DNA from: Buxus sempervirens
Taxonomy: Eukaryota > Streptophyta > Magnoliopsida > Buxales > Buxaceae
DNA: 64,000 nt
Reading direction: 5' to 3'
Assembly (NCBI GenBank): GCA_947561395.2
Contig: OX387187.1
Coordinates: 30,795,829 to 30,859,828, forward strand
A program made the position numbers and the translations under genes. The notes beneath the pieces are model-generated. The model was not told the origin of the DNA and made no database searches. It saw only the letters and a program-made list of their open reading frames with translations. Below, piece by piece: positions 18,652 to 62,818 of the stretch; position 1 is the first letter of the stretch; each line of letters begins with the position of its first letter.

Positions 18652-18683
<32 letters not shown>

Positions 18684-21801: not shown

Positions 21802-22079
21802 TGTAGACACCCCAAATTGCACTTCAATATAAGAGAACAGTCAAAAAGAACTTTAAATGTTTTATTTGAGCCTTGACATATGTCAAACATTCAAAGATAC
21901 TCAAGAATGGTGCTAACCGCACTGAATATACGGTTTTTGAGAATTTTGTCTCAACCGCCCTGTATGTGCAGTTGCGACCGCACACACAGCACGGTTGATG
22001 TTCATGCTTCTTGCGTAAGCTGCCACGTGGCTTCTAGAAGCTTTGGCCGTTGAGCCACGTCGACAGCAATCATGACGAG

Positions 22080-24573
22080 TGTGCGCACCCCATTTCGGGC
22101 CGCACGACGAGGTGCATGCGAAGTGATGCTCGCCTCGGAACTGATTTGGAGTCGCCACTGCCTGAGAGGTGCAGGCAGACACAAAAGGGGCACCTATTCG
22201 GGCCTAATTATTCTGGTCTGCGACTTATTAGAGTTCTAAGTAAGTTCTCGGTTACGTCTAGGGAAGCCCGAAGCCACCTTAGCCCACCCCGTCGATTGAC
22301 AGGTCCCGTGGGTCTCCTTGGTCTTGAGTCAACTTAATTCTCACCTTTCCTAGACCAGCATGCACACTTATTTGGTCTAAGTGGGGACCATTGATGGTGT
22401 AGGTTCCCCTTTTATTTGATTTTATCTTTTTATTATTTGGTGAAGTGAGTCGGCTACGGGCCCTATTGGAAGTCCCGTTGGGATCCAAATTGGGCTTAAG
22501 TCAAGCCCAAGGCCCAGTCCGGGTTATTGGGTAACCCTTATTGGATTATGGCTATTTGGTTTAAAGATTTATTTATATTTACAAAGTTAGTGGATTGATG
22601 TCTTTTAGGGCCCAATGGGCTTGGATTTGGCCCAATGGCAATTTAATCATGTGGCCTTTAATCCGTTTATCAAAACGGGCTTTGGTTAGGCTAGTCGGGA
22701 TGTGGGCCCCATTGAAGGGCCCACGAAGCCTTGGTGGGCCCACTTAGGCCCATAGTCTCAAAATAGGCTTGGAAAAGTCCAAGAAGCCCAATGGGTCAGA
22801 TTATGCAAAAATGGATCGGATTAGGTCCAACCGGGTCGGAAAAATGGTTTTTTAAGTTACTTTATCGAGTGACCGTATTTAATTCACAGTCTAGTCAAAA
22901 CCGTAATTTTAATACGGTTCAGGCAAGACCGTAGATTAACTACGGGCACGCCTGAACCGCTCTGAGTATACGGTTTTTGCTCAATTTCGCCGTTTTGCTC
23001 CGATTTCGATTGGGATCAACTTGGTCAGCTTCCTGGATATTCTCTCGACTTCTGTTGAGGTTCTCAATTTCTTGAAGGTGCTGCATTTACTTTGTTTGGC
23101 CTAAATGACCTCTTTCTCCTTTTCTCTTGCATTCTTTGAAGCCATCCTCTTTCTTAACCTTTCATGACTGTTCTCAAGAAGGGAAGGAGAGGGAAAGAAC
23201 GTGGGGATACAGCAAACTTTATATGGAGGACAAATCCTTCATAATAAACAAAACAAAAAAAATGAGGTAGGATAGATTAAAGTTAATCCCAATGTTCCTT
23301 TCTTATTTAGGATTGTTCTTTTGCATTTATAGGGAAACCACCTTGTATCAAGCCTCTCGTGGTGCACAATAAACAGCAAATGGGTTAGAAATGTTATGGT
23401 AACAATAGAATGTAGAAAGGAAACAAGAAGAGATATTAACAAAAATTACATTCTACTTATGTATCAAAAATACTTACAAAATAGTCTCTTTGCTTGTTTT
23501 ACACTTTTGTGGTTCTCTGGAAATTCTGACAGCGCTTCCACACCCTGTTGGATTCTTAGGATTGGTTTTGAAAGGGTCTTGATAGGTTGATTATGCTTAC
23601 AAGATGAAAGGAGAGGTTGGGCAGCACTCCAGGGGCAAAATGGGTATTTTTGGGTTGGGTATTGGGGCGGCGAGGTTTGGGCAGAGTTTGGACGTGGAGA
23701 AGACAAAGAAGGAGAGGGGGGCCAGCAAGGAGGACCAACTTGCACAAATGGGGGGGCTGGCCCCCTATTTATAGCCAAAATTTTCGTGCCCGTATTTGAA
23801 GTACAGGCATGCCTTGCCCGTACTTCAAATACGGGCGTGCCTTGCCCGTAATTCAAATACGGGCGAAAAACGCACATTTTCAAATCTCGCAAAATCGGCC
23901 ATACGGGACGCGTGTCCTGCTGTACAGCGACACGTGTCCCCTTCTAGAAGCTTGCCCATATTTGAAATATGGGCGTGCTTCATCCGTACTTCAAATACGG
24001 GCGCGCGCGTTTTTAAAATGCCGGATTTCAAATGCTTTATTAAATCTAATTTATTTAAAGATTTTTTGATTATTTTATTATAAAGACGAGATTCTTTTAT
24101 TAAAATATTATTAAAAAATAAAGATATTTCTATTAAATGATTATTTCATTTATTTAATTCATTTATTCTGCTTTTAGCTGCTGTTTTGCCACATGGGCAG
24201 CTTTCTTTGAAACTTTCACTGCCCATAACTTTTCCGTCCGATGTCCGATTTCAGCAAATTTGGTGTCGTTGGAATCAGCTCGGAACACACTATCCACTGG
24301 GATTAAGTTTGGCAGCTGAATTGGGGTCGAGCAAAAAGTCAACTTTCGCTTCCCCAAAAGTTTGACCAGCTCATAACTTCCTCATCCGGACTCCGATTCT
24401 GGCAAACTCGGTTGCGTTAGAACCGTGTCGAAATACTCTTTTCAATGAGAGGAAGTTTGATGGCCAATTCTCTTTGGATCAAAAAGTCAAACTTTGGCCC
24501 CCTCAAGGTTTGACTTTTTAATTGAAATTTTCATTTTCTTCATTTTTGGGGGTGCAAAAATCAGGTGCTAACA
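22080..24573 (-). mobile_element. Solo LTR C, nested in LTR D
   Basis: Minus-strand ends are TGTTAGCACCTGATTTTTGC and GGGTGCGCACA. The flanking 5-bp duplication is near-perfect (ACGAG at 22075-22079, ATGAG at 24574-24578). The host LTR resumes on both sides exactly where LTR E is continuous (about 60680-60695), an independent empty-site proof. Minus-strand TATAAAT at 23767-23773. A U3 array of near-palindromes with CCCGTATTTGAA-type arms lies at about 23785-24003, and others at 22845-22980. About 2.5 kb, different subfamily from A and B. Confidence 0.85.
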
Positions 24574-25140
24574 ATGAGTGTAACTGAATTGGAACCGCCC
24601 TGTATGTGCGGGTGAGGTGAATTTGCATGGAAACCACATATAGAGTGACGGTTCTGTGGAAACCGCACTATGTATGCGGTTTTGCTTGTTTCGAGGATTT
24701 GCGAAAAGTCTCGATCTCTGAGCCTTATTTACGCATATTACCTCTCTCTTAGGGACTTGAACTCCCTATATTACCCTCCGAAACCTCTAGATTTACATCA
24801 ATTCAAGGCTTTAACTTGAATTGGAATAATCTAAAGAGATTTTTGGGCATACCCTTAGGACTTTATTGCCCTTGGCTGTGCCTATAAATAGAGGAGTCCT
24901 CCTCTTGCAAGTGGCTGGCAATTTGAAGCATTGGAGCTCTATAAGAAGAAGGGATACTCTGCTGGATTGTCTACTCAAGGCTCAAGCTACCAAGGTAATG
25001 CTCTATTTAGCTTTCTAGTCTTCTTCTTTACAATTCCAACTCCCAACTTCTACCTTTCTGTAGTGTAAGACCCTAAGTGTTCTTTTTGTAGCCCCAAACC
25101 TCATCTAAAGTACCTAGAAATTGTCTCTAGCCGTAAAACG

Positions 25141-27420
25141 TGTGAGACATGGGAAAAAATCACCGGAGTGATCATCCCTCCGTCAGCACACGGGCTCAAC
25201 GCAAAAGTGGGAGAGTCGCCACCATTCATGATTTTGAGGTGAGAATGGACACCAAGAGAGATAAAAAATATGCAAAAAGTGTAAAAAGGCAAATTCTAGG
25301 ATAAAAATAATCCTACTTGAAAATCAAATCCAGAGATGGGTAAGGGGATTAGATTATGAACGGGGGAAGGTGTTAGGCACCCCCATTCATCCACACGAAG
25401 TGGTTGCCAAGTGTATGTTCATGCTAAAAAGAAAATAAGAAGCTTGCTAAAAATCATGAAAAAGCCTTGAAAAAGGAACAAATGTATGATATATTCACAT
25501 CAAGATCTAAATGGATTCTAGATCCTCTCTCATGTCAATATCATTTCTGGAATATCTCAAAAGATGGAAATCAAAGCTCAAGTTGCTCAAAACCAAGTTA
25601 AATCAAATCCGGAAAATTCGGTAAAAAGTATGCCATTTGCCTTGAAATCATTCAAATCCAATTCTGAATTGAACCAAACCAAATCCATTTGAAAGATTAG
25701 GGTAAATAAGAGTCTCATGCAAAATTTCACTTCATTCCGACGAAAAATCTAGGAGTTATGCTCCTTTGAAGTTGCTGCTGGGGATTTTTAAAAGTGGTAA
25801 GTGGGCAACTTTGGAAAATTGTCTAGAAAAATCCACTACATAGAAATCCACGAAATTTGGTGTGATTGAAGTCTGTATGACCATATTTCCAGAGAAACTA
25901 GCCTCATACAAAAATCCTTTCGGATGTGCCTTGGGTGGTCTCCCGAACAGGCCTCGAAGATCATAGATTTACCCAGAAAAGTGCAAATGAGCAGTTCTGA
26001 ATAAATCGGCTACCAATAATTTAAATGGAATCCAAAAATTATGAAACCAACTGGATTTGAAAATAGACTCAAAAAGGAGTACTCAGAAATAAAAATCACT
26101 TGAATCGGACTTAAAACGAACACATGGCGGTCCGTCGAAGTGACAAGTTCTGTACTTGAACCTGAACTGTCCACTCAACTTCGACAGAGAGGTGTCAAAA
26201 ATCCGCTAGATGAAAATTCATGAAATTTGGTGGACATAAACTAGACAGCCTCACCTTTCCCACGGTTCTAGAATCACCCCAAAATTCATCCGGATGATGA
26301 AGTTATGGGCGTCCGAAGTAAGGGTACAGGTGCTGTCAAGTTAAGCCACTTTTGAAGAAAACCAAATCCGAAAATTTATAAAAAGTGTGTGATTCGTGTG
26401 AGATGAATCCAAAACCTTTGAAAAACATTTTAAAACATTCCAGAATTTGATTGAGGCCATTTATTGGAGATTTATCACAATGAATGTAATAAATCCCCAA
26501 ATGTGAGCCTATTCACCAAAAATGTGTAATATGTGTGCAAAAGTGAAAAAACCAAGCAAGATCCATACACATGCATATAGATTCAACAAAATAGGTTCTA
26601 GCATAGCCTAGGGTTCCGTTCCATTATCGTTTCCCTCTGTTCTCTTTAAGATAATCAAGGGTACTTTGAATATGGAACGGTTTTCAATCAATCAAAAAGG
26701 CCTTATGCTACATAGGTTCTAGCACTAGGGTCAATCCCCAGTCTCGTTTCTCCTAGATCCGCCTTCACGTTTTACGGCTAGGGGAGTCTTGAGATACTTT
26801 GAGCCGGGAAAGGATTTCCACACATACAAACAAGGCTTTACACTACAGAAAGGTAGAAGAAGAGATCTAGATCTAGGAATGTAAAGACAGAAAATAAAAA
26901 GAAAAGTTGAGGCTTACCTGAATTCTGGAGGCGATTCCACAGCGGTTTTCTTCTTCTCTTGGAGTTCTTCTTTACGAGAATTCAAAACAAGAGTTGTGTC
27001 CCATTTGCTTGAGGAGGAGGCTCCTATTTATAGGCAAAGGCTAAGGTCATTGGTAGACACAACTTAATGTCTAGAACCCCTCCAACCTAAACCCTAAGGT
27101 TATTTCCGCAATTTCCCCTCATTTAATGAGGGACATGATGGTAAAAGTGAAAAGCTCTCGGAAAACCCTAATTTTGAGCAAACTTAAGGTATCCGGTATG
27201 TCAGACCGGATAAAAAAGGGCCTTAAGGTATCCGGTACCATGTACCGGATACACTAAGGCTCACATGTATCCGGTATGAGTATCCGGATACGGGAAAGGG
27301 TACTTGTATCCGGCCTGAGTATCCGGATATAGGTAAAAGTTTATTTTCTTCAAATTCTGTGCTGGCTTTCCAGGAGATAATGATTTTTGATGATTGTTTG
27401 TGCAATTTGGGGTGTCTACA
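25141..27420 (-). mobile_element. Solo LTR B, nested in LTR D
   Basis: Same family and orientation as LTR A (2098-4424). Ends on the minus strand are TGTAGACACCCCAAATTGCA and CCATGTCTCACA, with a perfect target duplication AAACG (25136-25140 and 27421-27425). LTR E is continuous at the matching site (about 61255), confirming the insertion. Minus-strand TATAAAT at 27026-27032. Four near-palindromes with TATCCGG/CCGGATA-type arms lie at about 27187-27335. No internal region. Confidence 0.92.
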
Positions 27421-29013
27421 AAACGTGAAGAGAGAACCTGGGGAAAAAGATGGTGGAATGGACCCTCTAGGCTTAGAACCTACAAATGATGAAGAGCATG
27501 CTGTTTGGTTATTTTGAGCCTATGGTTGATTTCTCTGATGTATTATGCATTTGTCTCTGGAGAGGATGTGCGAATCCTTGCTCTCAATAGCAATGGATTC
27601 CAGCCTTCTCCTAGAAAATTTGATTTCCATCACCACCAAGCACACTTTTCACTATTTTTTGCAAGGATCAGCTAGATCTTGGATTTCCATGTTTAATACA
27701 GGAAATCTGAGATTATTGGCTTTAAAATGAATCTTAGAACTTCATGAGATTGTTTTTCTTGATTTTCAAGTGTTTTGGTCGAATCCACTTGCACACATGC
27801 ACTGGTTTTGGACTCTTTCTTCAAAAATCTTCAAAATAGGACAGCATCTGTGGCCTGTCTTAGAATGCTTATAACTTCATCCTCCGGATGAATTTTTGAG
27901 TGATTCCAAAGACATGTAATAGATGAGCATGTCTAGATTGTATCTGGAAATTTTCGTTCATTTTTATGGAGCCAATTTTTGATACCATCTGTTCAAAGTC
28001 TGTAAGTCAGTTCAGCCCAGATTGCTGAACTTGCCGCTTTGATGGTGCACAATTTGCTCAATTTTAATCCGTTTTGAGTGATTTCAATTTCTGTGTTTTC
28101 CTTGAGGAGTTTATTTTCCATTCCAACTGGTTTCAACAGTTTTTGATCTGATTTATGGCTTGTGTGATTGATTGACTCAGAGTGGCTCTGTAACAGAGTT
28201 CTGGGTTAATCTGTGATCCTCTAGGCATGTTCAAGAAGACACACAAGTCACAAATGGATTGAGTTTGGTGCAAGGCTTATTTCGTTTGAAAGATGGCACC
28301 ATATACTTGATCCATGCGAGTTTTTACGAATTTATATGGAGCCAAACTCCACAAATAGAGTTTCAAAAATGCTTACTCGCCACTTTATTATGAGTTACAA
28401 TAGCAGATTTTCTTAGAATACTCTTCTCTTGTTTTAAATCAGAATAAGCTAATTTTTTCATAGAATATTCTACTTCTTACCAGCTTTCAAATGGCTTTGG
28501 TTTCATATGATTTGAATTTAAATTGAGTGATTTGTGGTCAATCGAAGCTTTCAAGTTCTTATAATCTGATTTTTCCAGATTTGTCTTGAATTGGTTTTTC
28601 TTCAAATTTTACTTAGATTTTTCTTCACTCATAAAGTTCTAAAGTGATATATCCATGAGGAGAGTCCAAGTTCATTGGATTACTCATATGGAATAATCAC
28701 ATACATTTTGCTTATTTTAAGCATCCTTTTTTTTATTTTTAATTAGCAAACAATTCTTAGCATGAGCAAGCGTGTGGCAACCGTCTTAGATGGATGAGTG
28801 GGGGTGCCTAACACCTTCCCCCGCTCATAAATAATTCCCCTTACCTGATCTCTGGATTTTTCCTTGTATTAGAGCTACTTTGGCTCTATTTGGCTTTTAT
28901 GAACCCTTTGGTGTCCATTCACACCTTAACTTGTATGGTGGCGACTCTATATCTTTTTGAACCCCGCGTGAGGATATCGGAAGTAATCTTAGTTGACATT
29001 TCCATGTCTCACA

Positions 29014-29785: not shown

Positions 29786-30112
29786 CACTACAAAAAAAGT
29801 CCTTTTATTACGGCACTTCAAAAGTGCCCTTATAATATGAAAAAATGCCGTTATAACATATAACGGCATTTTGATAAGGTGCCGTTTTAAGTGGTGTTGC
29901 ATTATGTTATAGCGACAACTTATAACGACACTTTGGAAAATGCCGCTACAAAGTGACTTTTTACGGCATCTAAAAATGCCGTAAAAATGTAAACTATTAC
30001 GACATTTTTTTAAAGTGTCATAATAAAATTTATCAGCACTTGAAGGCTTTAGCGACAACCACCAAGTGCCGCTAAAAGTTTATTAATTTAAAAAAAATTA
30101 ATTCCCACCCCA

Positions 30113-30116
30113 CCCC

Positions 30117-30153
<37 letters not shown>
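30113..30153 (+). repeat. Poly-C run of about 40 bases
   Basis: An almost pure C tract following CCCACCCCACCCCA. Its exact length should be treated with caution because homopolymers are error-prone in sequencing and assembly. It lies between the CACTA sub-terminal repeats and the 144-bp tandem duplication. Confidence 0.85.
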
Positions 30154-30155
<2 letters not shown>

Positions 30156-30166
30156 AATTAATTCAC

Positions 30167-30454
30167 CCACCCCTGGAAATCTCCATTATTAGTGGTTCTG
30201 ACTCCTGGAAATCTTTGAAACCACCCTGAATTGTTTTATATGTTTAAGGTGTACCAGTCCCACACGCTTGGTGGTCCATCCCGGAAAACTCAAGTTCTTG
30301 CAAGCACATACCACCCCTGGAAATCTCCATTATTAGTGGTTCTGACTCCTGGAAATCTTTGAAACCACCCTGAATTGTTTTATATGTTTAAGGTGTACCA
30401 GTCCCACACGCTTGGTGGTCCATCCCGGAAAACTCAAGTTCTTGCAAGCACATA
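30167..30454 (+). repeat. 144-bp tandem duplication inside the CACTA element
   Basis: 30167-30310 and 30311-30454 are identical by eye, starting CCACCCCTGGAAATCTCC and ending TTGCAAGCACATA. The near absence of differences means the duplication is recent or was not resolved in assembly. No coding content was recognised. Confidence 0.9.
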
Positions 30455-31039
30455 CATAGAGATAAGTGTTGCCGTTGTGCACATGAAATGAAAAATCTAG
30501 TCTACCTAACACATGCTACTGTTCACTATACCACCCAATAACTCATGTAATCACCTTGTCTTTCCTCTGCATCATCTATCTCAATACAGAATACAAATGG
30601 AGTAAATAATGTCACCTTGTCTACCATGGAAGCCCCAAGGTTGACTGACCATATTCCTTGAATCCATGCTCCAGCCCGCACTATATTTATTTAAGCATTA
30701 CAATAGAAAATGTTCATAAACAGTGAAACAGGCCGTGCCTCCTGAAACATCATTCTTTTAAAAACTATAGATATAGATAAACTAAATATGATTCAAGCAC
30801 AATAAATAGACATCCAAACCTGAAGGAAAAACTAAAGATAACTATCAAACACCACTAATAATTCAAAGTCAGAGATAGACTAAACACCAGAGACTTGCTC
30901 TCTTCATACTGTCTTTTACAGTCCCATGTTTGCTTACATGATTGCACAACTATCTGTCATACATGTAAAGATTTTAGTACAGAAAACATGGAATCAACTT
31001 TTACAGCTTTAATATACTCGCATCACATATAGCTGCCCA

Positions 31040-31175
31040 AAATCTCAGCAATATAGAGCGTATTACTCCTGCTGTACAGACATCAGCTTCTGGCCCATAA
31101 TTAATGCTTGCAGAGTACCCCAGGAGCAACATAATATGGAATTCCAACGACATCGGTGAAAACTTACTTGAAGCA
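31040..31175 (-). pseudogene. Captured calcium-dependent protein kinase (CDPK) fragment
   Basis: On the minus strand one frame reads VFTDVVGIPYYVAPGVLCK and an overlapping frame then continues NYGPEADVCTAGVIRSILL. Together these are kinase subdomains VIII-IX of the plant CDPK/CRK family, whose consensus is VFTDVVGSPYYVAPEVL followed by YGPEADVWSAGVILYILL. The invariant APE glutamate is a glycine here, the frame shifts between the two parts, and the WSAG tryptophan is a cysteine, so it is dead. No other kinase exons were recognised nearby. Its position inside a CACTA element indicates capture of a host gene segment. Confidence 0.75.
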
Positions 31176-34100
31176 GCAAACATATACATTGGCGAACAGA
31201 GGACTATTACCTTTATAGAAGTACCTAATCCATGCTCTCACTTCCATTTCTCCGCGTTGTCAAACAGCCAACAAAACAAGTCACGGCAGTAGAGACGAAG
31301 CAAAGTGAATCCAACAACAGCAACAACAGAGGGATGCATTTACCATTTTTGAGTTTCTTACAATAATACAAGCAAAATCCACTTCTCAGCTCCTGTTCTA
31401 TGTGTATATGTGGATTATTTTCATTGGGGCATATTTTGGATTCAAAGTGGTTCAATTTGCTCAACATTAGGGACTACTACTTCAAATTCTCACTTTAAGA
31501 GAGCACTAGGAAAGGTTGATACCCAAGCCTAAAATATATTGAATAATCAAAGATGAGAGAAGAATATAAGGAACATGATGGTAAACCCAAACACCATCTA
31601 TGATTCAGTGGATCAATCCTATAGAATGGGCAGCAAAAATCATCTAAGTAGGTTGATTTACTTAACTCTGTTTCATTCTATGGTCCAGATGGTGAAACAG
31701 GCGTACAAATAGACACCCAAGGACTAAACAGTTATATTAACTTCATAACAGGTATATATGAGGCTAATTAAATGTCATAGATGACACAGAAAGCATTTGT
31801 TACATTACTTGATGAAGCTGAAGAATTAATAGGTGCTAAATATCAAATCTAGTTAAATCAAAAGAAAAGGTATTCATTCATTTTGATTATATAAAATAAT
31901 TAACAAAACATATTTGCATTCAAGACTTACCATAATGTTTTTATACTACATGAAGGACGGAGCAACAAATACCATAACAAATTGTTGGAAGGCAAATAAA
32001 GGAACGAATTTTTAGCAGCGGTCATAGCTCATTGCTAAAACCCCATTTTTCTTTAGTGACTATTAGAATCAATTGCAACGTGGAACACAAGTTGATTGAT
32101 GATACCTAGTAGCAACATGTATTTGTGTTCACCGCAAAATTTGTGTTACTAAAAAAATCAATATTTTTTAGTGCAAGTGGGTTAGATCATGTGACCACTA
32201 AATTCCATTGATTCTAGGAAGCCAACCAAGCTACAAATATCAAGCCTAATCCGTATCATATACGCAAAAGAATGAGATTAAAGGGGTTGATAAAGCAAAT
32301 GCTAATTGCTAGTATCTCTGGACCAAGTGTAAATCTCTTTTCTTCTATAATCCTATTCGTTAAAAATTTATAAGAGTAATAATTGGTGAATGTGTGTTGA
32401 CTATTGTACAAACGAAATAGCACACAACAAACATACTTGAGAAAATCACAACACCCTCTCCATTATAGTTTCTGAGAAATTTCATCGTTCTGAATGGCAT
32501 TAACTTCCCCCACCAAAACTGGGATGAGGTGTCAAGAGAGGTAATGAATTAGTCATACCATCACTATCCTCTTTCACAATACCCTTCACAACGATCCCTT
32601 CCCCTCTCCTACATCCCATAACAATCTATCAGCTATGTGTTTTAGCAGCCTAAAATGTTTTTTTTTTTCTGTCCGCTATTCTCATGCTTGATATCTTTGG
32701 CAGTGCAAAAATTGATGGCAGAAATGGTCCATGTTGGTGAGAGGCGCAAACAAGCATCATCCTTTTATTTATTATATATAGAAGATGAGAGGCGCAAACA
32801 AGCATCATGAAGATTTAAAAGAAAAAGAATAAACATAAAACATTGATTCAAAAACCTAACCATCACCAGAAACTCTAACCGAAACACATTAAAAAAGGCT
32901 AGACAAACAGTAAGCAGAACACATCGATTACAAATGAAAAGGAATTAAAAAAAAAAACTAACCATTACCAGAAGGAGAAGGAAGGAGAAGTGCCTAATCT
33001 ATTCAGAAACATACCTGAAGCCTTGGAAATACTGATTTCAAAGATAGAAGTCGAAAGCTTTGTGCTCCTGTTTGGTTATGGAGCGTAAGAACTTGAAGGA
33101 ATAGTTGAATGAAGAGTTGATTACCGGAAACGTTATTGTTCAGATAGTTGAGTCGCCCGGAAAGAAGGAAGATCGCCTGAGAATGCAATCGGGTCACAAC
33201 TGGAGACTGTTTTGAATCAAATTTGTTTTCTCGTCACTTTGCTGGTTATTGCCAACAAACATACAAGGAAAGAACAATAGATCTAGAAATCAGATCCACA
33301 ATATTGAAAACTACATAACGATTCCACAAATCAAATATGCAAACTCGAAAATCGATCTATCAAATCTTCAAACAAGATGAAACTTATGAAAGAGATCTAG
33401 AAACATACCTCCGACGCAAACGAATCTGTTTCAGAAATCAAAACCCTAAGGCTTCATTAGGCATATCCATGTACTATTTTTGTTGTAGAGAGCGCGAGAA
33501 AGAGTAATCGACTATTTTGTTGCAGAGAACGCGAGAACGCCCTAATCCGACAGGTCTTCTGTTCTGTTCTGTTTCATTCGTTGAGTGTTCTGTTTTGTTT
33601 CATTCGTTGAGCGCATTGACAACCCAAAAAAAGGAAAAATCGGTTTTTAGGGTTTTTTTTAAAACTAATTCATATTCAACCATCCAATTCTTTCAAATTG
33701 GTAATTAATTATGTTTTCTTTAAATAATTAAGAACTAGTCTTCTTTCAAATAATTTCATGACTGTATCTGAATTATTTTCATAATACATCAATTAAATAA
33801 ATTTACCCAAAAAATTTACTTTATTTTTAATAATTATTTTATATTTATAGCGGCATTTCATAATAAAGTGCCGTAATACAATATTTTATAATTATTGTAT
33901 AGCGGCATTTGATAGATAAGTGCTGTAACAAATTGTTTTATAAGGGCATTCAGTTAAAGAATGCCGTAATAAATTATTTTATAACAGCATTCACTAGGAA
34001 AATGCCGTAATAAATTGTTTTATAGCGGCATTTTTCTAGGAAATTCGGTAATAAATAGTTTTATAATGGCATTTTTAAAAAAATGCCGTAATAAATTGTT

Positions 34101-34209
34101 TTATAACGGCATCTGCATATGAAATGCCGTATTTAGGCACTTATAAGGGCACTTTTTTATACGTGCCCTTATATTAGTGTCGTTATATCACTTTTTTTTT
34201 GTAGTGTAA

Positions 34210-35159
34210 GCTTGAGTTCTAAGTTGCCAATAAGCCAAATCCTAGAACCCCTACGCTTGAAGGTGGAAAAACACATTTTTGGCCAAAGTAAACCAAATGC
34301 GAGGGGAAAAGGGTTTGTAATGAGGGAAGGCCGTCTTGCATGGCTCAGGTGATCCAAGGTATGATATAGTCACCATCTGGAAGGTAAATATGAGATAACA
34401 AGGTATTTTCAGTCTATTTCTTGTAATGGCCACTATACTTTGTAAAATCAAGCTCATGGTGTCCATTTTGTTGGGATTTTGTTTTTCCCAGAAAGTTGCT
34501 ATTATCCTAGGATTGGTGTAGCCCTTAGAGAGAGTTTTTACTCTTCTTAGATGTCATTCTACCCAAATACTCTTAGGAGGCACCCAAAAGTCCAAAATCC
34601 ATGCATTGGGTGTCCATTTTGGGAGGGAGCCTAGGCTCTCCTCTGTTTAAATATGGCTAATCCTCTTTTTTGCAAGAAATTTGTGTTTGAAGGCCCCCAG
34701 GAGCTGCTAGTACAAAGGGTCCATCTCTTGTTAGTTTAGAAATTTTCTTTCTCAAGCCCAAAAAGGCTAAATTGTATTTTTTATTTTTTTTGATTCATGC
34801 CCTTGAAGGCAAATTTGTATTATAGTTCATTTCCTTTATTGTAAAGGATCTTTTTGCATATTTGTAAAGCCCTTTGTGCAATCTCATAAAGTTCATGGTA
34901 TACATGGATTTTAATACCATTTGATGTGTCAAATGCCCAATTTGGGGCAGTCTAGAAGCCAACCAATGGGGAACAATGAGTTTGGACAAGTAATCAAGCT
35001 AATAAAACCAATTGGAAAAGGAAACAATTCGAAAATCTGATTTCTGGCTTAAAACCATCTTGAGTATGTGGTTTCCTGCATTTTTGCTGCAACCGCAGGA
35101 TATGTGCGGTTTAAGCCAAACCGTTCTGAGTGCACGGTTTTAAGCCGAAATCCTGTTTC
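34210..35159. other. Repeat-derived DNA, probably retroelement remains
   Basis: No coding frame. At about 35050-35145 there are three near-palindromes of the same style as the U3 array of LTRs D and E (AACCGC..GCGGTTT and AAACCG..CGGTTTT arms), so part of this is likely a remnant of that LTR group, but no LTR ends were found. The rest may be the continuation of the internal region cut by the CACTA element. Confidence 0.4.
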
Positions 35160-36837: not shown

Positions 36838-36951
36838 AAACTGTTGTGCTACTTGTACAAAATCATTTGGGGTTGCAGTTTTGCTTAGAAGTCTGGCAAG
36901 AAATCGCTTTGGGTAATATGCTTTCAAAAGCATATTACCCACATGCATATG

Positions 36952-37001
<50 letters not shown>

Positions 37002-46044: not shown

Positions 46045-48272
46045 TGTAGACACCCCAAATTGTACTACAAAAATCAATGGATGAATGCATGCATAAAGGG
46101 TTTTTGAGCATAGCTAATTGAAATCGGTTATATACTACTCTTTTGTAATCGATCACTAATAAATGGTTGTTGACCGAGATTTTGCAACGATTTAAGGCTA
46201 ATGTGGCATCTAGAACCTTCAACAGCTATGCCACATCAGCGAAGGCACGTGGGATTATAACTGATTTGAACCAATATGTTATATCGGTCAAACAAGCTTT
46301 CTTTGTAACCGATTTATTATATCGGTTATAAACTGTTTCTTTGTGACCGACCTGAGATATTGGTTCACCTCAAAAAGGTTCAATTTGAAATTCCCATTAG
46401 TCTTCTCTTATTTACCATATAACCTTTCTCTAGAAGGCTTTATTTGTCAAAATTGGCCTCCGAAATTGGCCAAATTCCTTCTAATTCATGCTTTAGCCTT
46501 TAATTGGAAGCATCTAGAGACACTTTTGTGTCTACCATTAGGACTCTTCTACTCTCACTTGTGCCTATAAATAGAGGGCCTCTTCTCCATGCAAAGGGCT
46601 GGAAATTTGAGATCTAAGAGCTCCTGCTGGGGGAGGGGAAACTCTGCCCAAGTGTATTCTCAAGCATCTAAGGTTTCCAAGATCAACCAAGGTATAATAC
46701 CTTTAATTTTCAGCAAACTCTTTACATTTCAAGCACTCTCTCATTTGTGCTCTTTTTCAATGTTAGGCATGATTTCTTAGATCTACTATGCTCAATATGG
46801 TAGATCTAAGAATTTGGCCTTAAAATAAAATTTCAGGATCATCATGATGTTTTATATTTAACCTTAATCACTAGGAGAAGGTCTCATGGCTCCTTAGATC
46901 TAGGAATTTCCTTATGCAATTTGGGTTCAAACTCTCCAAATTACGAGAGATTTGGACTAAATTCTTGTCCTAGATGTTTTTACAGATCTCCTAACTCATT
47001 TGCATTCGTTTGGATTTGATTTCAAGAGCTGGATGCTCAGATTTAAGGATTTGGTATAGCCTCTACTCAATTTTTTTACAGATCTAGACAGAACCTGTAC
47101 CCTGTATTGGATCATTCATCACTTCATCATATGGATGAATTTTTGAATGATTCTAGAGGCATGTAAAAGGTAAGGAAGTCTAGGTTAATCCTGTAAAATT
47201 TAAGCAATTTATATGAAGCCGATTTTTCAAACCATTTGATTGAAGTTGATGAGTCAGATAAGAACAGATTGTTGTACTTGTCACTTTGATTGAGCACCAA
47301 AGGTTCATTTTAACTTTGATTTGAGTGATTCTAATTTCTAAGTCTTCCTTTATGAATATAATTTCAAATACAATTGGTTTCATAACTTTTCACTTTGATT
47401 TTAGCTCTGTGTGCTTGATTGACTATGTGCTGCTCAGTAGCAAGTTATAGAGTCAATTTGTGATCTTCTAAGCATGTTTGAGAGAGCACACAAACTACAA
47501 ATGGATGAAGTTTTGAATGAGACCTATTCCATTCGAAAGATGACATTTCATACTTCATTCACACCAATTTTCAAGGATTTATATGAAGCGAATCTCCATG
47601 AATAAGCTTTCAAAGTTTGCTACTTATCACTTTTTCTGTTTTATATCAGTAGATTTTGAACAAGTATATCTCTTGTGATTTTAATTGGATTTGAATGAAA
47701 TTTTTACTGAGACTTATACTTCATATAACCTTTCAAATGGTTTTAGTTTCACTCAATTTGAGTTTTGATTAAATGATTTATGGTTGATTGAAATTTCCCA
47801 GCTGAAATAGCATGATCTTGTATTGATATTTCCATATTTGATTTGATATGTTTTTCTTCAAGAATTATATTGATTTTTCTTGATCATGAAGCTCTGAAGG
47901 TGATGTATCCACAAAAAGAGTCCATAATCAATTGGATCACTCATGTGGAGAATCACACTTTTGTTTTCTCTTGTTTTTGTTCATTTTTGGTGTGAAATAT
48001 ATATGTGCAAGCATGAAGCATGAATGAGCATATGGTAACCACTTTGTGTGGATGAGTAGGGGTGCCTAACACCTTCCCCTACTCATAACCAAACCCCCTT
48101 ACCCAATCTCTGGACTAGACCACGAATTAAAGCTACTTTAGCTCTATTTCATTCTTTTATGCTCACTTTGGTATCCATTCACACCCTAAACTTGAATGGT
48201 GGCAACTCCTTGCTTTTATGAATTCCGTGTAGATGATTAGGTAGTCACATGGGTGATTTCCATGGTCCCACA
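46045..48272 (+). mobile_element. Solo LTR F (same LTR group, older)
   Basis: Starts TGTAGACACCCCAAATTGTA and ends CCATGGTCCCACA. TATAAAT box at 46565-46571. U3 near-palindromes with ATCGGTTAT/ATAACCGAT-type arms at about 46125-46375. Flanking pentamers GATAT (46040-46044) and GCTGT (48273-48277) agree at only three of five bases, so this is an old insertion or the duplication is not preserved. The 3' half is recognisably related to LTRs D and E (for example GGGGTGCCTAACACCTTCCC near 48060). No internal region. Confidence 0.8.
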
Positions 48273-50404: not shown

Positions 50405-50412
50405 CGGTAAAC

Positions 50413-53400
50413 TTAGGGGTGCGCGGCGGGCCGGCCCGGCACGGCCCGGCACGCCTCAGGTGTGCTCGGGCGGGCCGCGGGCCAGCCGTGCCGCGGGCCT
50501 GACGTGCCGCGGGCCTGGCGGGCCGCGGCACGCCAGGCCCATTTGCCCCAAACCCAAGCCCGGCACGGCACGCCCCAGCAGGCGTGCCGTGCCGGGCCTA
50601 GCCCGCCGGGCAGGCGGGCCGCCGCCGGGCCGGCGGGCCAATTAATTTTTTTTATTTTTAAAAATCCCAAAAAATCCCAAAAAAATCCCAAAAAATCCCC
50701 AAAAAATCCCAAAAAATTTCTGTAAAATACTTTTATTATTCACAAAATTGTTTTACACATATTGAGATAAATTTTGCTCAAAAAAATATAAATTCATTAA
50801 TTAGCATAAGTACACTTACAACTTTGCAAAAATTACATAATTACTTGAACAAATAATACTGCATCACTATAGTATAAGCACATCCCAACTAGGTTGGCAC
50901 CCACTCATCTATCTATCATTTGCAGTTTAAAAGAAACAAAAAAAAAGAGAAAGTACAATTCCTATACTTTGATTACAAAAATTATAACAAAACTTAGACT
51001 ACTCTAGTTGACTAAAATCAATATTCAAATCATCAAAGTCTCCAGCAAGTTGATCATCTTCATATTCTTGTTCTCTCAGTTCTGCCCTTAACCAATCTGT
51101 AAGACTAACACATGCTTGCACCATCTCCGGCGTTAATCTGCTCCTGTAATCATCCACGGTTCGTCCACCTGCACTAAAAGCTGATTCCGATGCAACTGTG
51201 GACACCGGAACCGTTAGTAGATCACGTGCCATGGCGGAAAGCACAGGATAATTAACCTGATTTTGCTTCCACCATGTCAAAATGTTAAAAGCATTATGCT
51301 CTTCTATAGTATTAAAACTCATTGGGGGGCTTTCTAAAAAAATCATTAATTCAGATGATCCCCCACTACTAGAAGCTGGTTGTTTTCCCTTTCTTCTCCC
51401 ACTTAAAAAATTCCAAGCGGAATTATTTGGTAGTGTTTGTTGGGTTCGTGTATGACTTTGTATGCTACTACTAGTATCGTATTCACAAAAAAGTCTTTCT
51501 AATAGATTTCTTATTTTACGTATATCTATTTGAAAAGTAGAATTCATATTTTCATTTATTCCATCTATTAAGTCTTCAACTCCTAATTTAATCCTAGGGT
51601 CCATTGTAGTAGCTAAACAATATAAATTAGGCATCTCTTGCCAATATTTTAAAAATTTAATTTCCATTGCAGGGATAATTTCCTTAGCAATGGGTACATC
51701 TCTATATTGTTTAAAACAAATACTTATTTGATATAAACAAGTTATAATACTTGAAGATGTTGGGTAATAAACTACTGATAAATATCTTGTTGCATCATAA
51801 AAAACTTTTAAAAAATCTCTTAAAATTTCGGCTATTTGCCAATCAAGATCCTCTAAGTCACTTTCAGGCATTTTACTTTTATAAAATATTGTAATTTCTT
51901 GTTTTAATCCTAATGCAGCTTCTAGCATTATATATGTTGAATTCCACCTATGTTCAACATCTAGGGTAATTTTTTTATATTGTTTTCCTAAAGTTTCACA
52001 ATAATATTTAAATTCTCTAGCGGTTGTGCTAGATTGTTTTATAAATCTTACTGCATCTCTAATATTTATTAAATGATGTTGAACAATTTTTAATCCATCT
52101 TGCACAACTAAATTAAGAATATGACAAGCACACCTAACATGAAATAAACTTCCATCTATATTTAAGTTTAATTGTTGTCTTAATATTCCTATTGCAACAT
52201 TATTAGCACTTGCATTATCAAGTGCTAGAGCCATTATTTTATTGTGTATTTTATAATTTCTTAGATTTCTACTTATAGCATTTGATATATTTATTCCAGT
52301 ATGGCTAGCATCTAGTGGTTCAAAAGTTATTATTCTTTTTTCCATATTCCAATTTTCATCAATATAATGTGCGGTTATAGCTAAATAGCTTATTTGTTGT
52401 CTACTTGTCCAAATATCTGAAGTTAAAGCTATTTTAAAAGTACTGTTTGACAAAGTTTCTATTAATGCAGTTTTCATTTTTCCATATAATTTTATGGCAT
52501 CCTTTCTTAAAGTGTGGCGTGAAAAAGGTTTAAATTGTGGTGCTAAATATTTAGTTAGTAAACGGTGAAATCTTTTAGAATCTATTAATCTAAAGGGTAA
52601 TTCTTCTTGAATTACCCACTTTACTATTTCAAGCCTAGTTTCTTCTTGATTAAAAATAAAATTACTTATAGCAACACTACTAGTAGAAATTTGGGTTTGC
52701 CTAGGGTCAATTTGGCCATGTTTTGGAAGGCATTTCTGCAAATGCCGGTTCAAGTGGCCTGTACCACCTTTGCCTTTACAACTAAACTGTTTTTTGCAAT
52801 GGTTACACACTGCCTTCTCTTCACTCCCTACACTTTCAATTGTAAAATTAAGCCAAACACTAGAGGTTCTACTCCTCTTAGTGCTCCTAGGTGGTAGGGA
52901 AGACGATCCCATATCCTGTGAAGGGAATTCTGTTTCAAGACCTTGGATGGGAGGGTCATTATATTGGGGTTGGGTTATATCATCAGAAAATACTGGGTCA
53001 GAAAGGGGTCTAAGATATTCCCTTTCTTCAGTGTCAAAAAACATAGGATACCTAGGGTCCATTATCAAATTTTTTGAAAAAAAAAATTCTTAATAAATAA
53101 TATTATAATAACTATTTGGTGATATTAATTTATAAGAAAGGTAGAAGGAGAGACTTACTTATAATAATAATATTTATACTAATTTTAAAATCAGAAAATT
53201 AAATAGAAGAATACCTCTTTAGAATGAATCTTGAACTTTGCAATTGAAGCCTTCAACCTCCAGAGTCCAATTTCCCACTTTTGATGCTTGAACAATTAGA
53301 AGAGATTGAGTATCACCAATTTCCAATTACAACAATTAGAGCAAAGAACTATTTGATAATCAATTAGAAGAGAGTAGGAGATTGTAGAAGTGGTGTGGTT

Positions 53401-53926: not shown

Positions 53927-53934
53927 CGGTAAAC

Positions 53935-54840: not shown

Positions 54841-54865
54841 GGATTCCCGGCCCTCTAAATCTTGC

Positions 54866-57219
54866 ATGTCTTTAAAAGCTTCCAAGTTTTTGGCCTCCAG
54901 TGCACCATTTTCATTAGAGATGTCTGAGGAAATTAAGGATCTGCGAAAAATAATAGAGGCTCTGAAGATCGTTCGTGAGGCGGAAGTCATTGATCGATTG
55001 TACTCATTAATTATGGATCTGCAAAAAATGGACCCGGAGTTGAAGAACGCTGCAGAGACTGGAGACATTGATAAATTGTACTCATTAATTGAGCAAAACC
55101 CCTCCATTCTCGATGGTCTTGATGCACTCCAGTTCGTTGATACTCCCCTGCACATAGCAGCAAGGGATGGGAAAGCTGATTTTGCGATGGAGATTGCGAA
55201 TCTAAAGCCTTCGCTGGCTAGCAAGCTAAACAAAAAGGGGCTCAGTCCCATGCATCTGGCTCTGGAAAATGGACACGAGAGCATAGCGAGAGGGCTGGTG
55301 CAGGTTAACAAAGAACTCGTCCGTGTCAAGGGAAAAGGAGGGAGAACTCCACTCCACGATGTGGCTTCTACTGGGAATTTATCTCTGTTGAGCGTCTTTC
55401 TCGATGCTTGCCCAGCTTCTGTTGAGGACACGACAGTTCAACTGGAGACTGCTCTTCACCTTGCCGTGAAATCCAGCGAGTTGAAAGCGTTTTCGCTTCT
55501 GTTGAAATCGCTGGAAAGGCAACATAAGAGTGAGATCCTGAGCTGGAGGGATAACCATGGCAACACCGTGTTGCATGTGGCTACCTCAGAGTATATTCAA
55601 GTATATTCTTTATATATATATCGATATATCTTCATACATTCTTCTTTGGTCGATCCCCTTCAATTAATTATGTCAGGCATTTTTTGACTTAAATTAAGAT
55701 TAATGCTCTGGCAGGATTTTCAAGTAAATGATATTAATACAGAGGGAAAGACAGCCCTGGAAGAGGCTCTGAACAACGTTGCTGAGGCGGGAGACATCAA
55801 TGGCTTGTACTCATTAATTAAGCAAAACCACTCCATTCTTGATGGTCTTGATGCACTCCAGTTCGTTGATACTCCCCTACACATAGCAGCAAGGGATGGG
55901 AAAGCCGAATTTGCGATGGAGATAGCGAATCTGAAGCCTTCGTTGGCCAGAAAGCTAAACGAAGACGGGCTCAGTCCCATGCATCTGGCTCTGGAAAAGG
56001 AACACTGGAGCATAGCGAGAGGGCTGGTGCGGGTTGACAAAGAACTCGTCCGTGTCAAAGGAAAAGGAGGGAGGACTCCACTCCACGTAGTGGCTTCTAC
56101 TGGGAATTCAGATCTGTTAAAGGTCTTTCTCGATGCTTGCCCAGCTTCTGTTGAGGACACGACTGCTCAACTGGAGACTGCTCTTCACCTTGCCGTGAAA
56201 GAGGACACGACAGTTCAACTGGTGACTGCTCTTCACCTGGACACGACAGTGGACACGACAGTTCAACTGGAGACTGCTCTTCACCTTGTGAAGAGCAAGG
56301 TGAAGGGCAAGTGGCAAGCTTTTTTGCTTCTGTTGGAATCGCTCAGAAAGCAAGATAAGAGTGAGATCCTGAGCTGGGGGGATAACCATGGCAACACCGT
56401 GCTGCATGTGGCAACCACAGAAAATAAGCACAAGGTAGGCTTGGCCTGTTGAGATATATATCGATAGATCTTCATACATTCTTCTTTGATCGATCCCCTT
56501 CAATTAATTAACCTCGTATGTCAGTCATTTTTTTTACTTAAATTAAGATTAATACTCTTGTTGTTATGCAGTTTGTTAAGAAGCTGCTCCGGCAGGATTT
56601 TCAAGTAAATCATATGAATACAGAGGGAAAGACAGCCCGGGACATATTGTTGAAACAAGGAAAGCAAGGGCACAAGCTAGAACGTCCCTTCTGGCAGGCC
56701 GGGGCTTTAAGGTCGGATGAGATTTTATCTGATAAGAGAGGCATGGTACTTGTGATGGCGTTGATCCGAAGGAGATTCTTCTCGTGGAACTTCATCGCCT
56801 ACCTCCGGTACAATCCGTGGATAGACTCCCAAGAAAGTATGCGCGATGCACTTCTGGTGGTGGTGGGGCTGATCGCCAGCGCCACTTACCAGTCGGGGAT
56901 CAGCCCTCCCGTCGATAAATGGCCGCACAAATTCCAATTTTATTGCTATTTATTTCTCAACTCTCTGGGGTTTGACGTGTCTCTCGCAATGCTGATGATC
57001 CTCACAAGGGGTTTACCTCTGCAAGGTGTGCTGGCATTCGCCCTGCTGTCCATGTGGGCTAATTACGGCTATTCAATGCAGAGCATAGCACCACAAGGAC
57101 ACGGTCTAATGTTCTTTCTTTTCGGTTATGTTTTCCCAATTCTCAGCACATTCACTTGTGTGTTAGTGTGGGAACTAGCGCAGAAAGTAAAATTGGCGTG
57201 GAAAGTTTGGCTACGTTGA
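54866..57219 (+). CDS. Ankyrin-repeat protein with PGG membrane domain (ACD6/ITN1-like)
   Basis: Three exons, all joined in phase 0: 54866-55600, 55715-56434 and 56572-57219, giving about 700 residues. Introns are GT..AG (GTATAT..GGCAG and GTAGGC..TGCAG). Exons 1 and 2 each encode about five to six ankyrin repeats (DTPLHIAARDGKA, LSPMHLALENGH, GRTPLHDVASTGN, NTVLHVAT). Exon 3 encodes the PGG domain with four predicted membrane helices at about 578-595, 606-629, 634-653 and 663-687 (ALLVVVGLIASATYQSGISP is the PGG signature). This family (ACD6, ITN1 and relatives) sits in the plasma membrane or endomembranes and acts in salicylate-linked defence or salt-stress signalling; which role applies here is unknown. 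Exon 1, its intron and exon 2 are an internal duplication. From the TATA box position, translation may begin at the second ATG (54920, MSEEIKD). The frame is intact, so the gene is probably functional. Confidence 0.88.
55045..56571 (+). repeat. Internal exon-intron duplication within the ankyrin gene
   Basis: About 730 bases beginning AACGCTGCAGAGACTGG (55045) recur from 55776. The copy includes the intron, since both introns share ATATATCGATA and TCATACATTCTTCTTTG. In the upstream copy the counterpart of the first 21 bases of exon 3 (TTTGTTAAGAAGCTGCTCCG region) is missing, and a CAG that is coding in exon 3 (56591-56593) serves as the acceptor at 55712-55714. Confidence 0.85.
56155..56292 (+). 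repeat. Intragenic minisatellite in exon 2
   Basis: A unit of about 39-48 bases (GAGGACACGACAGTTCAACT, then GGAGACTGCTCTTCACCT) is repeated about three times with a 12-base partial unit. Exon 1 has it once (55425-55470). The frame is kept, but the fifth ankyrin repeat of exon 2 is stretched into VQLVTALHLDTTVDTTVQLE-type sequence, probably disrupting its fold. Confidence 0.85.
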
Positions 57220-59942: not shown

Positions 59943-62818
59943 TGTAGACACCCCAAAATTGAACGATTTTTTATAAATCTTGAAGGAGAGAAATATTTTA
60001 TTGGAATTTTCAATTCTTAGCATTGGATTTGAGATCCTTAACCCATTTGAATCCAAAGCCGCAAAGGAAAATGCCCGAATTCAATCTTTTATGCAAAGTC
60101 AAACTTTTTCGGGTTGAATTTTGTTGACTTTTGACCCCAGAAAATGAAATATTTTTTAAAGCAAGATTTCAAGATAATTTTTCCCCGTAATCAGGTTTTT
60201 AGCAATGTTATTGCATAAATGAATTTTTTGAGATTTTAAATCTTGATAAATACCTTTGTATCAACATGTTAAATCTTTTTACCGGACCTGAAAAACCGGA
60301 ATTTAGCCTGGAACTGGAAAGTTGACTTTTTATTCACTTGGAATTTGGGTCTGGAAATATTTTTAATGGATTCAAATTGGGGGGGAGGGGGGGTGTTTGC
60401 TTATTTACATGTAATATCTTAAGTAAATGAAGATTAAAAAATACGATGACATTTACTTAAACGATATTACATGTAAATAAGCCTGGCCTGTGCAGTTAAG
60501 GCTCAAAACCAACCAAAAATGTGCTGACCGCAGTATATGTGCGGTTTTGGTTAATTTGGTCTGAACCGCCCTGTGTGTGCGGTTTCGACCACATACACAG
60601 CACGGTTGAGGTTCATGCTTCTTGCGTGAGCTGCCACGTGTCTTCTAGAAGCTTTGGCCATTGGGCCACGTCGACAGCAATCATGGGGAGCATAACTAAA
60701 TTGGAACCGCCATGTATGTGCAGTTAAGATGAATTTGCATGAAAACCACATTTAGAGTGACGATTCTGTGGAAACCGCACTGTGTATGCGGTTTTGCTTG
60801 TTTCAGGGATTTGCGAAAATGCTCGATCTATGAGCCTTGTTTACGCATATTACCTCTCTCTCATGGACTTGAACTCCCTATTTCACCCTCCGAAATTGCT
60901 AGATTTACAACAATTCAAGGCTTTAACTTGAATTGGAACAATCTAGAGAGATTTTTGGGCATACCCTTGGGACTTTATTGCCCTTGGCTGTGCCTATAAA
61001 TAAAGGGGTCCTCCTCTTGCAAATGGCTGATAATTTGAAGTTTGGAAGCTCTGCAAGAAGAGGGGAAACTCTGTTGGATTGCTGCCTTAAGTGTTCAAGC
61101 TACCAAAGGTAAAGCTCCATTTCATTTCTCACTTCTCCTTTACATTTCAACTCCCAACTTCTACCTTTCTGTAGCGTAAGGCCATTTGGTGATTGTTTGC
61201 AAGCCCCAAACCTCTTTCAAAGTACCTGGCAATCCTTTCTAGCCGTAAAACGTGAAGAGAGAGCCTTGAGAAAAGGAAGATGGAATGGATCCTTTAGGCT
61301 AGAACCTACCTTGAATCATTTGCATGTTATTTCTATATGCTGATTATTTGTGCTATTTGAATCTAGAGAAATTAACATGATCCATGCTCTCAATAGCAAT
61401 GGATTTTAATTTTCTCCTAGATATGTGTTTTTTACCAATATCATACACTTTTTCACTGTTTTCATCAAGAATAGGTTAGATCTTGGATTCACCATGTTCA
61501 ATGTGGTAAATCTGAGATCCTTGGCCTTAGAATGAATTCTTAGGACTTCATGAGAATATTTTTGATGATTTGAAGCCATTTTGGTCGACTCTACTTGCAC
61601 ACATGCACTGATTTTTGCCTTTTATTCAAAAATCTTCAAAACAGGGCAGCATCTGTGGCCTGTCTTGGAATGTTTATAACTTCATCCTCCGGATGAATTT
61701 TTGAGTGATTCCAAAAACATATGATAGATGGGAGAGCCTACTTTGTATCTAGAAATTTTCGTTCATTTTTATGGAGCCAATTTTTGACACCATCTGTTCA
61801 AAGTCTGTAGGTTAGTTCAGCCCAAATTGCTGAACTTGCCGCTTTGATGGTGCACCATTTGCTCAATTTTAATCCGTTTTGAGTGTTTTCAGTCTCTGTG
61901 TTTTCCTTGAGGAATCTATTTTCTATTCCAACTGGTCTCAATAGATTTTAATTTGATTTGTGGTTTGTGTGCTTGATTGACTCAGAGTGACTCTGTAACA
62001 AAGTTCTGTGTTAATCTGTGATCCTTTAGGCATGTTCAAGAGAACACACAAGTCACAAATAGATGGAATTTAGTGTAAGACCCATTCCGTTTGAAAGATG
62101 GTACCACATACTTCATCCATGCAAGTTTTTACGAATTTATATGGAATCAAACTCCACAAATAGAGTTTCAAAAATGCTTACTCGCCGCTTTTCTCTGAGT
62201 TACAACAGCAGATTTTCATAGAATATTTCTCCCTTGTTTTAAATAGGAATGAGATGATTTTCTTACTCAATATTCTATTTCATACCAGTTATCAAATGGC
62301 CTTGGTTTCATTTGATTTGAATTTAAATCAAGCGATTTATAGTTGATTGAAATTTTCAAGTTCTTATAACCTGATTTTTCCAATTTTACGTTAGTTTGGT
62401 TTTTCTTCATTTTTATCTTGATTTTCGTTCACTCATGAAGTTATAAAAGTGGTATATCCATGAGGAGAGTCCAAATTCATTGGACTACTCATGTAGAATA
62501 ATCACATACATTTACTTATTTTTAAGCACCCTTTGTCTATTTTTGATTAGCAAGCAACCCTTAGCATAAGCAAGCATGTGGCAACCGTCTTAGGCGGATG
62601 AATGGGGGTGCCTAACACCTTCCCCCGCTTATAAATAAATCCCCTTACCTGATTTCTGGATTTTTCCTTGTATTAGAGCTATTTTGGCTCTATTTGGTTT
62701 TTATGAACCCTTTGGTGTCCATTCACACCTTAACTTGGATGATGGTGACTCTTTATTTTCATCGATCCCCGCGTGACGATATCAGAAGTCATCTTAGGTG
62801 ACATTTCCATGTCTCACA
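59943..62818 (+). mobile_element. Solo LTR E (same subfamily as LTR D)
   Basis: Starts TGTAGACACCCCAAAATTGA and ends CCATGTCTCACA, with a perfect 5-bp target duplication ATAAC (59938-59942 and 62819-62823). TATAAAT at 60995-61001. U3 near-palindromes with ACCGC/GCGGT-type arms at about 60526-60610 and 60703-60800. It aligns with LTR D outside the two nested insertions and serves as the empty-site reference for both. An extra segment near the 5' end contains a small foldback (60399-60482). No internal region. Confidence 0.92.
60399..60482. repeat. 84-bp palindromic foldback inside LTR E
   Basis: The arms GCTTATTTACATGTAATATC (60399-60418) and its exact reverse complement (60463-60482) enclose 44 bases, and the inner bases also pair (AAGTAAATG with CATTTACTT). 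It follows a G-rich run. It resembles a tiny foldback or MITE insertion; no target duplication could be fixed. Confidence 0.75.

Follow-up and report, generated by a model that had tools for sequence, protein, structure and literature searches.

Clade-specific 21-bp dyad arrays in Ogre/Tat-like LTR retrotransposons of Buxus sempervirens, candidate sites of a dimeric and possibly element-encoded protein

What kind of constraint keeps arrays of near-palindromes ahead of the promoters of long terminal repeat (LTR) retrotransposons, when the arms of these palindromes differ from one group of elements to the next? The question is raised by a 64,000-nt stretch of Buxus sempervirens DNA (C9:30795829-30859828; hereafter the window), which is dense in nested LTR retrotransposons. 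An initial annotation had described, between positions 21802 and 62818, six related LTRs with some three to six near-palindromes each upstream of the TATA box, and had proposed either a dyad binding site or selection for hairpins as their cause. Delimiting the LTRs by self-comparison and reading, and re-verifying their ends, we recovered the six LTRs (A to F, Table 1) with their near-palindromes, LTR A lying outside that interval. The arrays already listed stood, and two had been missed: a second one within LTR C and one at 35053-35139. From these arrays, and from a search of the window's own genome (676.5 Mb, the single genome searched), we conclude that the palindromes are probably sites of a dimeric DNA-binding factor, whatever its origin.

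The near-palindromes are variants of a single 21-bp dyad, RHCCG-N11-CGGDY, in which two seven-base half-sites around CCG face each other with an offset of 14 bp. CCG-N11-CGG occurs 25 times in the window (20 dinucleotide shuffles: mean 1.4, maximum 4), with 24/25 sites lying within the LTR arrays or 35053-35139 and the exception at 28962; spacing controls with N10 and N12 gave 5 and 6 sites, somewhat more than their own shuffles. A motif-free search for units with 6/6 complementary outer bases found 22 matches at a length of 21 bp in 4,232 nt (200 dinucleotide shuffles: mean 1.7, maximum 8), together with 19 and 16 at lengths 19 and 23, mostly with identical centres, only 2 each at lengths 20 and 22, and modestly raised numbers (5-11) at several lengths from 24 to 38. 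As the 4,232 nt were picked for holding arrays, this test gives the preferred length and not an excess over the window. The dyads follow one another mostly at steps of 28 bp (LTR C and clade M of the three LTR clades T, M and A described below) or 38-39 bp (clade T and LTR F), with no single step in clade A (38, 23, 68 and over 100 bp). Half-site orientation flips every 14 bp in both LTR C arrays (within 23788-23864 for the U3 array), in part of LTR D and in 35053-35139.

Genome-wide, RHCCG-N11-CGGDY was found 127,402 times, compared with 3,922 times for N10 and 7,517 times for N12, the latter count perhaps partly reflecting a 22-bp unit of clade A, as four of the N12 places listed lie inside loci of that clade (L029, L030, L033 and L038). 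As a control, the pattern read backwards, which is a different motif (GGC/GCC), gave 42,338, 26,371 and 28,658 matches for N11, N10 and N12. We also sampled LTRs blind to their U3 regions, by way of a distant downstream motif in U5 with 9,574 copies, and took 60 loci from them, all on contig C1 (0.14-8.13 Mb); seven of them were dropped for an unclear start or TATA box, and the remaining 53 formed 22 clusters at 93% identity. Arrays might have been absent from most family members, a possibility that the initial annotation had allowed for; instead, at least one dyad was present in the U3 of all 53 scorable LTRs, and at least two in 52 of the 53. The 22 non-redundant U3s (10,912 nt) hold 74 dyads (100 single-base shuffles: mean 0.66, maximum 3). 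None occurs in the 32,243 nt that separate the TATA box from the U5 motif in the same representatives. On the same contig, eight U5 motifs lie on one strand at a spacing of 15.32 kb (C1:8462647-8569921), a tandem block of element-sized units. Outside this genome, a search for relatives with the primer-binding-site pattern matched one viral contig, of bacterial look (61% GC); the LTR-start pattern gave zero matches, and the array patterns gave none in viral contigs and, in genome contigs, none in one scan and a single Betaproteobacterial metagenome-assembled genome in another.

From the end of the last perfect dyad to the TATA box downstream of it, the distance is 199-209 bp in 8/9 representatives of clade M and 4/6 of clade A, and 156-167 bp in 6/7 of clade T. 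Such set distances would suit dimeric binding to CCG half-sites by a family of host transcription factors, with the element clades adapted to paralogues that differ in their flanking preferences and the array acting as an ordinary enhancer or repressor site; every flavour of the dyad also retains both CCG and the N11 spacing, which a single factor family would need. A site that tracks a changing host factor, as the initial annotation put it, is possible. No described plant factor with the dyad site was found in a literature search aimed at LBD factors only, which gave nothing usable on these as host binders. We regard a host factor as a serious alternative, though less likely than not, in view also of the arrays inside the elements described below.

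What varies between clades is the spelling of the half-site. In a maximum-likelihood tree of R-U5 (63 rows, omitting L016 and L027), clades T, M and A separate, with ATCCGG or ATCCGA in T, mostly GMCCGTA in M and AACCGC/T in A (support 100/100), and LTR F adjoins clade A on a long branch; L019 and L047 are placed oddly, probably owing to nested or neighbouring LTRs. These spellings, or flavours, require 4 changes on the tree, where the minimum is 3 and shuffled labels average 24.3, the surplus change being that of L019. The labels came from the arms, and the tree therefore addresses flavour clustering only. Among 61 distinct dyads of the 22 representatives, position 1 is always A or G, G is missing at position 2 and any letter can stand at position 6, and the letters around CCG largely agree over all half-sites of one LTR. 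The earlier description of arms that differ by subfamily thus applies to positions 1, 2, 6 and 7, whereas all types share CCG/CGG (positions 3-5/17-19) and a length of 21 bp.

It had also been observed that both arms of a unit switch together, which is true, although mainly as a matter of array-wide spelling and not of hairpin-type compensation: the arms switch together because all half-sites of an array share one spelling. Partner letters match at arm positions 1, 2, 6 and 7 in 0.93, 0.84, 0.72 and 0.72 of the 61 dyads. The mean pairing of 0.803 exceeds that obtained by permutation over all units (0.386) and within flavour (0.665), with 0/2000 permutations as high for both, and at these two levels there is an excess of paired changes. 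Within single LTRs the excess loses significance (permuted 0.782; 187/2000 as high), in a test whose attainable span of 0.713 to 0.844 gives little room and leaves space for a weak partner effect.

These comparisons bear directly on whether RNA or cruciform-DNA hairpins are under selection, perhaps for a role in genomic RNA packaging or dimerisation. Arms of 7 bp around a 7-base loop could form stable hairpins, the U3, leader and 3' arrays would all be expected in the full-length transcript, and partner letters at position 6 show linkage across the LTRs of clade T (p 0.005). However, beyond the within-LTR result, position 2 in clade M, which is A or C, shows no significant partner link (p 0.23; 25/29 units of 11 LTRs hand-picked as one per near-identical pair, with 4/29 units outside the 2x2 table), the centre is found in either orientation, and the 48 mismatched arm cells on the sense strand include 7 GT/TG and 17 AC/CA, without the wobble preference that would mark a paired structure. 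Hairpin selection, the second of the initial proposals, is accordingly improbable. The dyad binding site, the first of them, gains from the fixed 21-bp geometry, the common CCG half-site core and the centres lying in either orientation.

The distribution of changes within the arrays is also uneven. Among the units of one LTR (96 unit pairs, with orientation set so as to favour spacer and flank), agreement is 0.77 for arm letters outside CCG, 0.58 for spacers and 0.41 for flanks. Between LTRs A and B, 0/24 positions of the CCG core have changed, compared with 7/32 other arm positions, 11/28 in spacers, 28/96 in array linkers, 22/191 in other U3 sequence and 239/1898 in R-U5, such that the core is held and linkers and spacers change faster than the rest of U3; between LTRs D and E, six units differ at 7/84 arm and 9/42 spacer positions. 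The regular periods of 28 and 39 bp would be expected if the arrays were functionless tandem repeats, in which a palindrome was copied by slippage and the copies are alike through recent duplication, and a degree of resemblance of internal arrays to the U3 array of their element points the same way (75% over 105 bp, in inverted orientation, in one T element). Nonetheless, arms agree more than spacers and flanks, the LTR A and B cores are unchanged while their spacers are not, the 21-bp CCG geometry persists across clades of differing half-sites and periods, and the dyads are absent from the remaining LTR sequence, all of which makes mere repetition very unlikely.

The spacer itself had been said to keep a recurring centre, CTGWGTAT. 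This recurrence is strong in the clade of LTRs D and E, where 14/16 distinct units lie within 2 mismatches, weaker in that of LTRs A and B (5/22, in the opposite orientation), and in the GMCCGTA clade M no higher than in shuffled spacers (2/23). Dyad positions 9, 11 and 13 are A or T at frequencies of 0.92, 0.85 and 0.95, compared with 0.60 across U3.

Arrays of the same kind also occur outside the LTRs. We examined five element copies, three with complete internal regions and two seen at the 3' end only. Leader arrays lie about 1.2-1.6 kb past the primer binding site in L072 and L074 (clade T) and L071 (clade M), and further arrays lie 0.3-0.7 kb ahead of the 3' LTR in L072 (T), L075 (A) and L076 (M). 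Each internal array has the flavour, and usually also the step size, of its own LTR, and 7/7 scored internal arrays fit the U3 half-site profile of their own clade best. The seven are not independent, given 90% identity between the two T leader arrays and the U3-internal similarity noted above, and arrays within one element may share common descent. For the array at 35053-35139 in the window, the best reading is a leader array that belongs to LTR D's element and is split from the LTR by a CACTA-type insertion: the leader pieces flanking that insertion are separated by 491 and 496 bp in two other copies, where 496 is expected, and a third pair, on C8, has 3.8 kb in between. This spacing led us to drop a seventh LTR as an explanation of the array.

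That separate arrays of one element share a flavour, even more than 1 kb into the leader, speaks against a host factor; one flavour over all of them suggests a factor that reads the whole element. Moreover, gag-only copies retain their arrays, as they should if the factor acts in trans; L071 and L072, for example, have gag, and their scanned open reading frames (ORFs) hold no pol domain.

By domain order and ORF position, the elements appear to be Ogre/Tat-like Ty3/gypsy retrotransposons with an antisense ORF. One T-clade copy encodes gag, a G-patch domain, reverse transcriptase, two RNase H-type domains and integrase, its pol order (RVT_1, RT_RNaseH, RVT_3, Integrase_H2C2, rve) including the second RNase H of Ogre elements, and TGGCGACTCTGCTGGGGA follows the LTRs, where Ogre elements have a primer binding site complementary to tRNA-Arg. 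The antisense ORF on the 3' side, a further mark of Ogre elements, is present in one T and one M copy and, with a plant mobile domain, in an A copy. It sits between pol and the 3' LTR, is 299 amino acids long in the T copy and is 73.6% identical over 295 amino acids in the M copy; 131 scored copies of the T ORF (from 5,863 first-look candidates) are 96-100% identical to it. In the one clade A copy examined, the antisense exon matches the plant mobile domain PF10536 at 41.5 bits (cut-off 34.9), and 150 scored copies of it (from 3,435 candidates) are 90-100% identical. Among the matches listed (40 and 150 rows, compared by eye), eight pairs of an A-clade leader and an antisense exon lie 12.7-19.9 kb apart with the exon downstream on the opposite strand, as expected for the two ends of one element. 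The T/M antisense exon has, judged by eye, a charged, coiled-coil-like C-terminus, and in the T copy (L073:571-1470) a pyrimidine tract and TTTGCAG stand ahead of it and, again by eye, resemble a splice acceptor. Antisense genes of retrotransposons could keep introns, as the sense transcript would not splice them. The integrase ends of the M copy (L076:262-576) and of the T pol (L073) are 94% identical over 104 amino acids despite distant LTRs and gag, and an exchange of pol between the M and T families is possible.

A dimeric DNA-binding protein would be expected to leave just such traces: a fixed geometry, centres lying either way, a core shared by the flavours and one flavour throughout an array. 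We infer such binding of the dyads; with less weight, we take the binding protein to be the element's own antisense product. Given the matching internal flavour and the antisense ORF, an element-encoded factor is at least as likely as a host factor, and we put at about even the chance that the dyads are sites of a family-specific dimeric protein for which the element itself is the likelier source. In the mechanism that we propose, a dimer would bind two facing seven-base half-sites around CCG, each Ogre/Tat-like family spelling the half-site in its own way wherever it carries arrays, be it in U3, in the 5' leader or, for some copies, next to the 3' LTR. The antisense protein would recognise the dyads of its own family and, once bound, activate the promoter and leader or keep both unsilenced, and site and protein would diverge together, as has been proposed for VANC proteins and VANDAL transposons. 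We offer only tentatively this full form, in which Ogre antisense plant-mobile-domain proteins are dimeric self-recognition factors, each reading its own CCG-N11-CGG spelling in U3, in the leader and in the 3' region and thereby activating or unsilencing the copies of its family, with array-wide co-evolution of protein and site.

Several observations weigh against this proposal. A host factor family would leave similar marks. No array was found beside the 3' LTR in L071 and L073, two of the three fully seen internal regions. Whole arms differ between LTRs A and B about as fast as other U3 sequence (7/56 and 22/191), and in the four units compared between LTRs D and E, 2/24 core positions differ. 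The T and M antisense exons match the plant mobile domain or DUF7745 only below the cut-off, and an upstream exon of the T copy's antisense ORF was not found. Finally, M and T are 59-60% identical in gag and 65-79% identical in the antisense ORF; as gag differs more, the antisense ORF is not specially fast. The sample behind the proposal comes from a single genome and consists of 60 loci, all on one contig, and five copies of the elements.

Table 1. LTRs, dyad arrays and other features of the window
Feature	Position	Strand	Dyad starts	Period (bp)	Flavour	Remarks
LTR A	2098-4424	-				solo; exact 5-bp duplication ACTAT; clade T
Array of LTR A	4183-4320		4183, 4222, 4261, 4300	39	ATCCGG
Direct repeat	18622-20131 and 36922-38403					about 1.5 kb, 95% identity
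LTR D	21802-29013	+				split by LTRs C and B; clade A; primer-binding-site-like sequence after it, at 29016
LTR D array, part 1	21915-21996		21915, 21953, 21976		AACCGC
LTR C	22080-24573	-				nested in LTR D; duplication ACGAG/ATGAG, one mismatch
Second array of LTR C	22871-22975		22871, 22899, 22927, 22955	28		3' of its TATA box
U3 array of LTR C	23788-24002		23788, 23816, 23844, 23954, 23982		GCCCGTA
LTR D array, part 2	24593-24681		24593, 24661			degenerate 22-bp unit at about 24633
LTR B	25141-27420	-				solo, nested in LTR D; exact 5-bp duplication AAACG; clade T
Array of LTR B	27191-27328		27191, 27230, 27269, 27308	39	ATCCGG
CACTA-type insertion	29786-34206	+				splits leader of LTR D's element; TAA on both sides; read by eye, ends checked
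Leader array of LTR D's element (best reading)	35053-35139		35053 (degenerate), 35091, 35119		as LTR D
LTR F	46045-48272	+				sister of clade A, long branch; no exact target duplication recognised on reading its flanks
Array of LTR F	46269-46365		46269, 46307, 46345	38	AACCGA	both CCG and CGG intact in dyad 46307 only
hAT-type frame	50999-53089	-				696 amino acids
Ankyrin-repeat frames	54842-57219	+
LTR E	59943-62818	+				solo; exact 5-bp duplication ATAAC; clade A
Array of LTR E	60526-60793		60526, 60564, 60705, 60773		AACCGC

The two-array layout of LTR C is visible by eye at further places in the genome. The CACTA-type element that interrupts the leader has CACTACAAAAA ends, a TAA duplication and many subterminal repeats resembling GCCGTTATAA; within it, an exact head-to-tail duplication of 145 bp (30167-30455) directly follows a long C run and is possibly recent or an assembly effect. 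Elsewhere in the window, the open frame on the minus strand carries BED zinc finger, hAT RNase-H-like and hAT dimerisation domains, and the ankyrin-repeat frames are followed by a weak PGG-domain match and include a 431-bp repeat at 90% identity.

VANDALs are DNA transposons. In Arabidopsis they carry family-specific motif arrays in noncoding regions, which change together, and the available parts of the two reports describe tests of VANC binding and demethylation as well as a VANC21 motif, YAGTATTAY, that is arrayed one way and is not described there as a palindrome (PMC5735166, PMC10398659). The elements described here resemble VANDALs in that a short, family-specific motif is densely arrayed in several of their noncoding regions, with units that change together, and differ in being LTR retrotransposons, in the fixed gap of the 21-bp dyad and in having a binder that is a candidate; we do not claim them as members of the VANC/VANDAL system.

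Ogre and Retand have the domain order of the T copy, with the second RNase H between RNase H and integrase, and 57% of Ogre elements carry a plant mobile domain, according to the accessible text (PMC6317226). Large LTRs, the second RNase H and an antisense plant-mobile-domain ORF near the 3' LTR are likewise features of Ogre elements as described (PMC6317226, PMC9289625), whereas dyad arrays are unmentioned in the portions of these two articles at hand and 'palindrom' is absent from the main text of PMC6317226. Retand, in the part of its description available, shares the antisense ORF between pol and the 3' LTR, with suggested DNA binding and tandem repeats there (PMC11963269). Unlike in Retand, TRP28 (PF04195) had no match in the window's genome, where control genomes were equally silent and absence is thus not proven; we set TRP28 aside as a binder. 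From the sections of the reports on MAIN and MAIL1 that we could consult, these proteins share the plant mobile domain with the clade A antisense ORF and are linked to transposon silencing and to genes with a short promoter motif, DOWN, their direct DNA binding being untested (PMC7156037, PMC9899485); the quoted DOWN site, CATGCAGTTT, is not a CCG dyad.

Among the titles, abstract openings and open-licence articles covered, no description of such palindrome arrays was found, and the function of antisense ORFs in plant LTR retrotransposons is called unknown in the part of one account available (PMC7264820). With a defined candidate target, spelled in at least four ways and matched more than 100,000 times in the genome, that function becomes open to a direct binding test. 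If the proposal is true, self-specific regulation of the VANDAL type would gain a counterpart in LTR retrotransposons that uses a different protein, and the arrays would permit a change of specificity to be read family by family. The plant mobile domain would then be a DNA-reading module, a candidate molecular function that could explain the link of MAIN and MAIL1 to a promoter motif.

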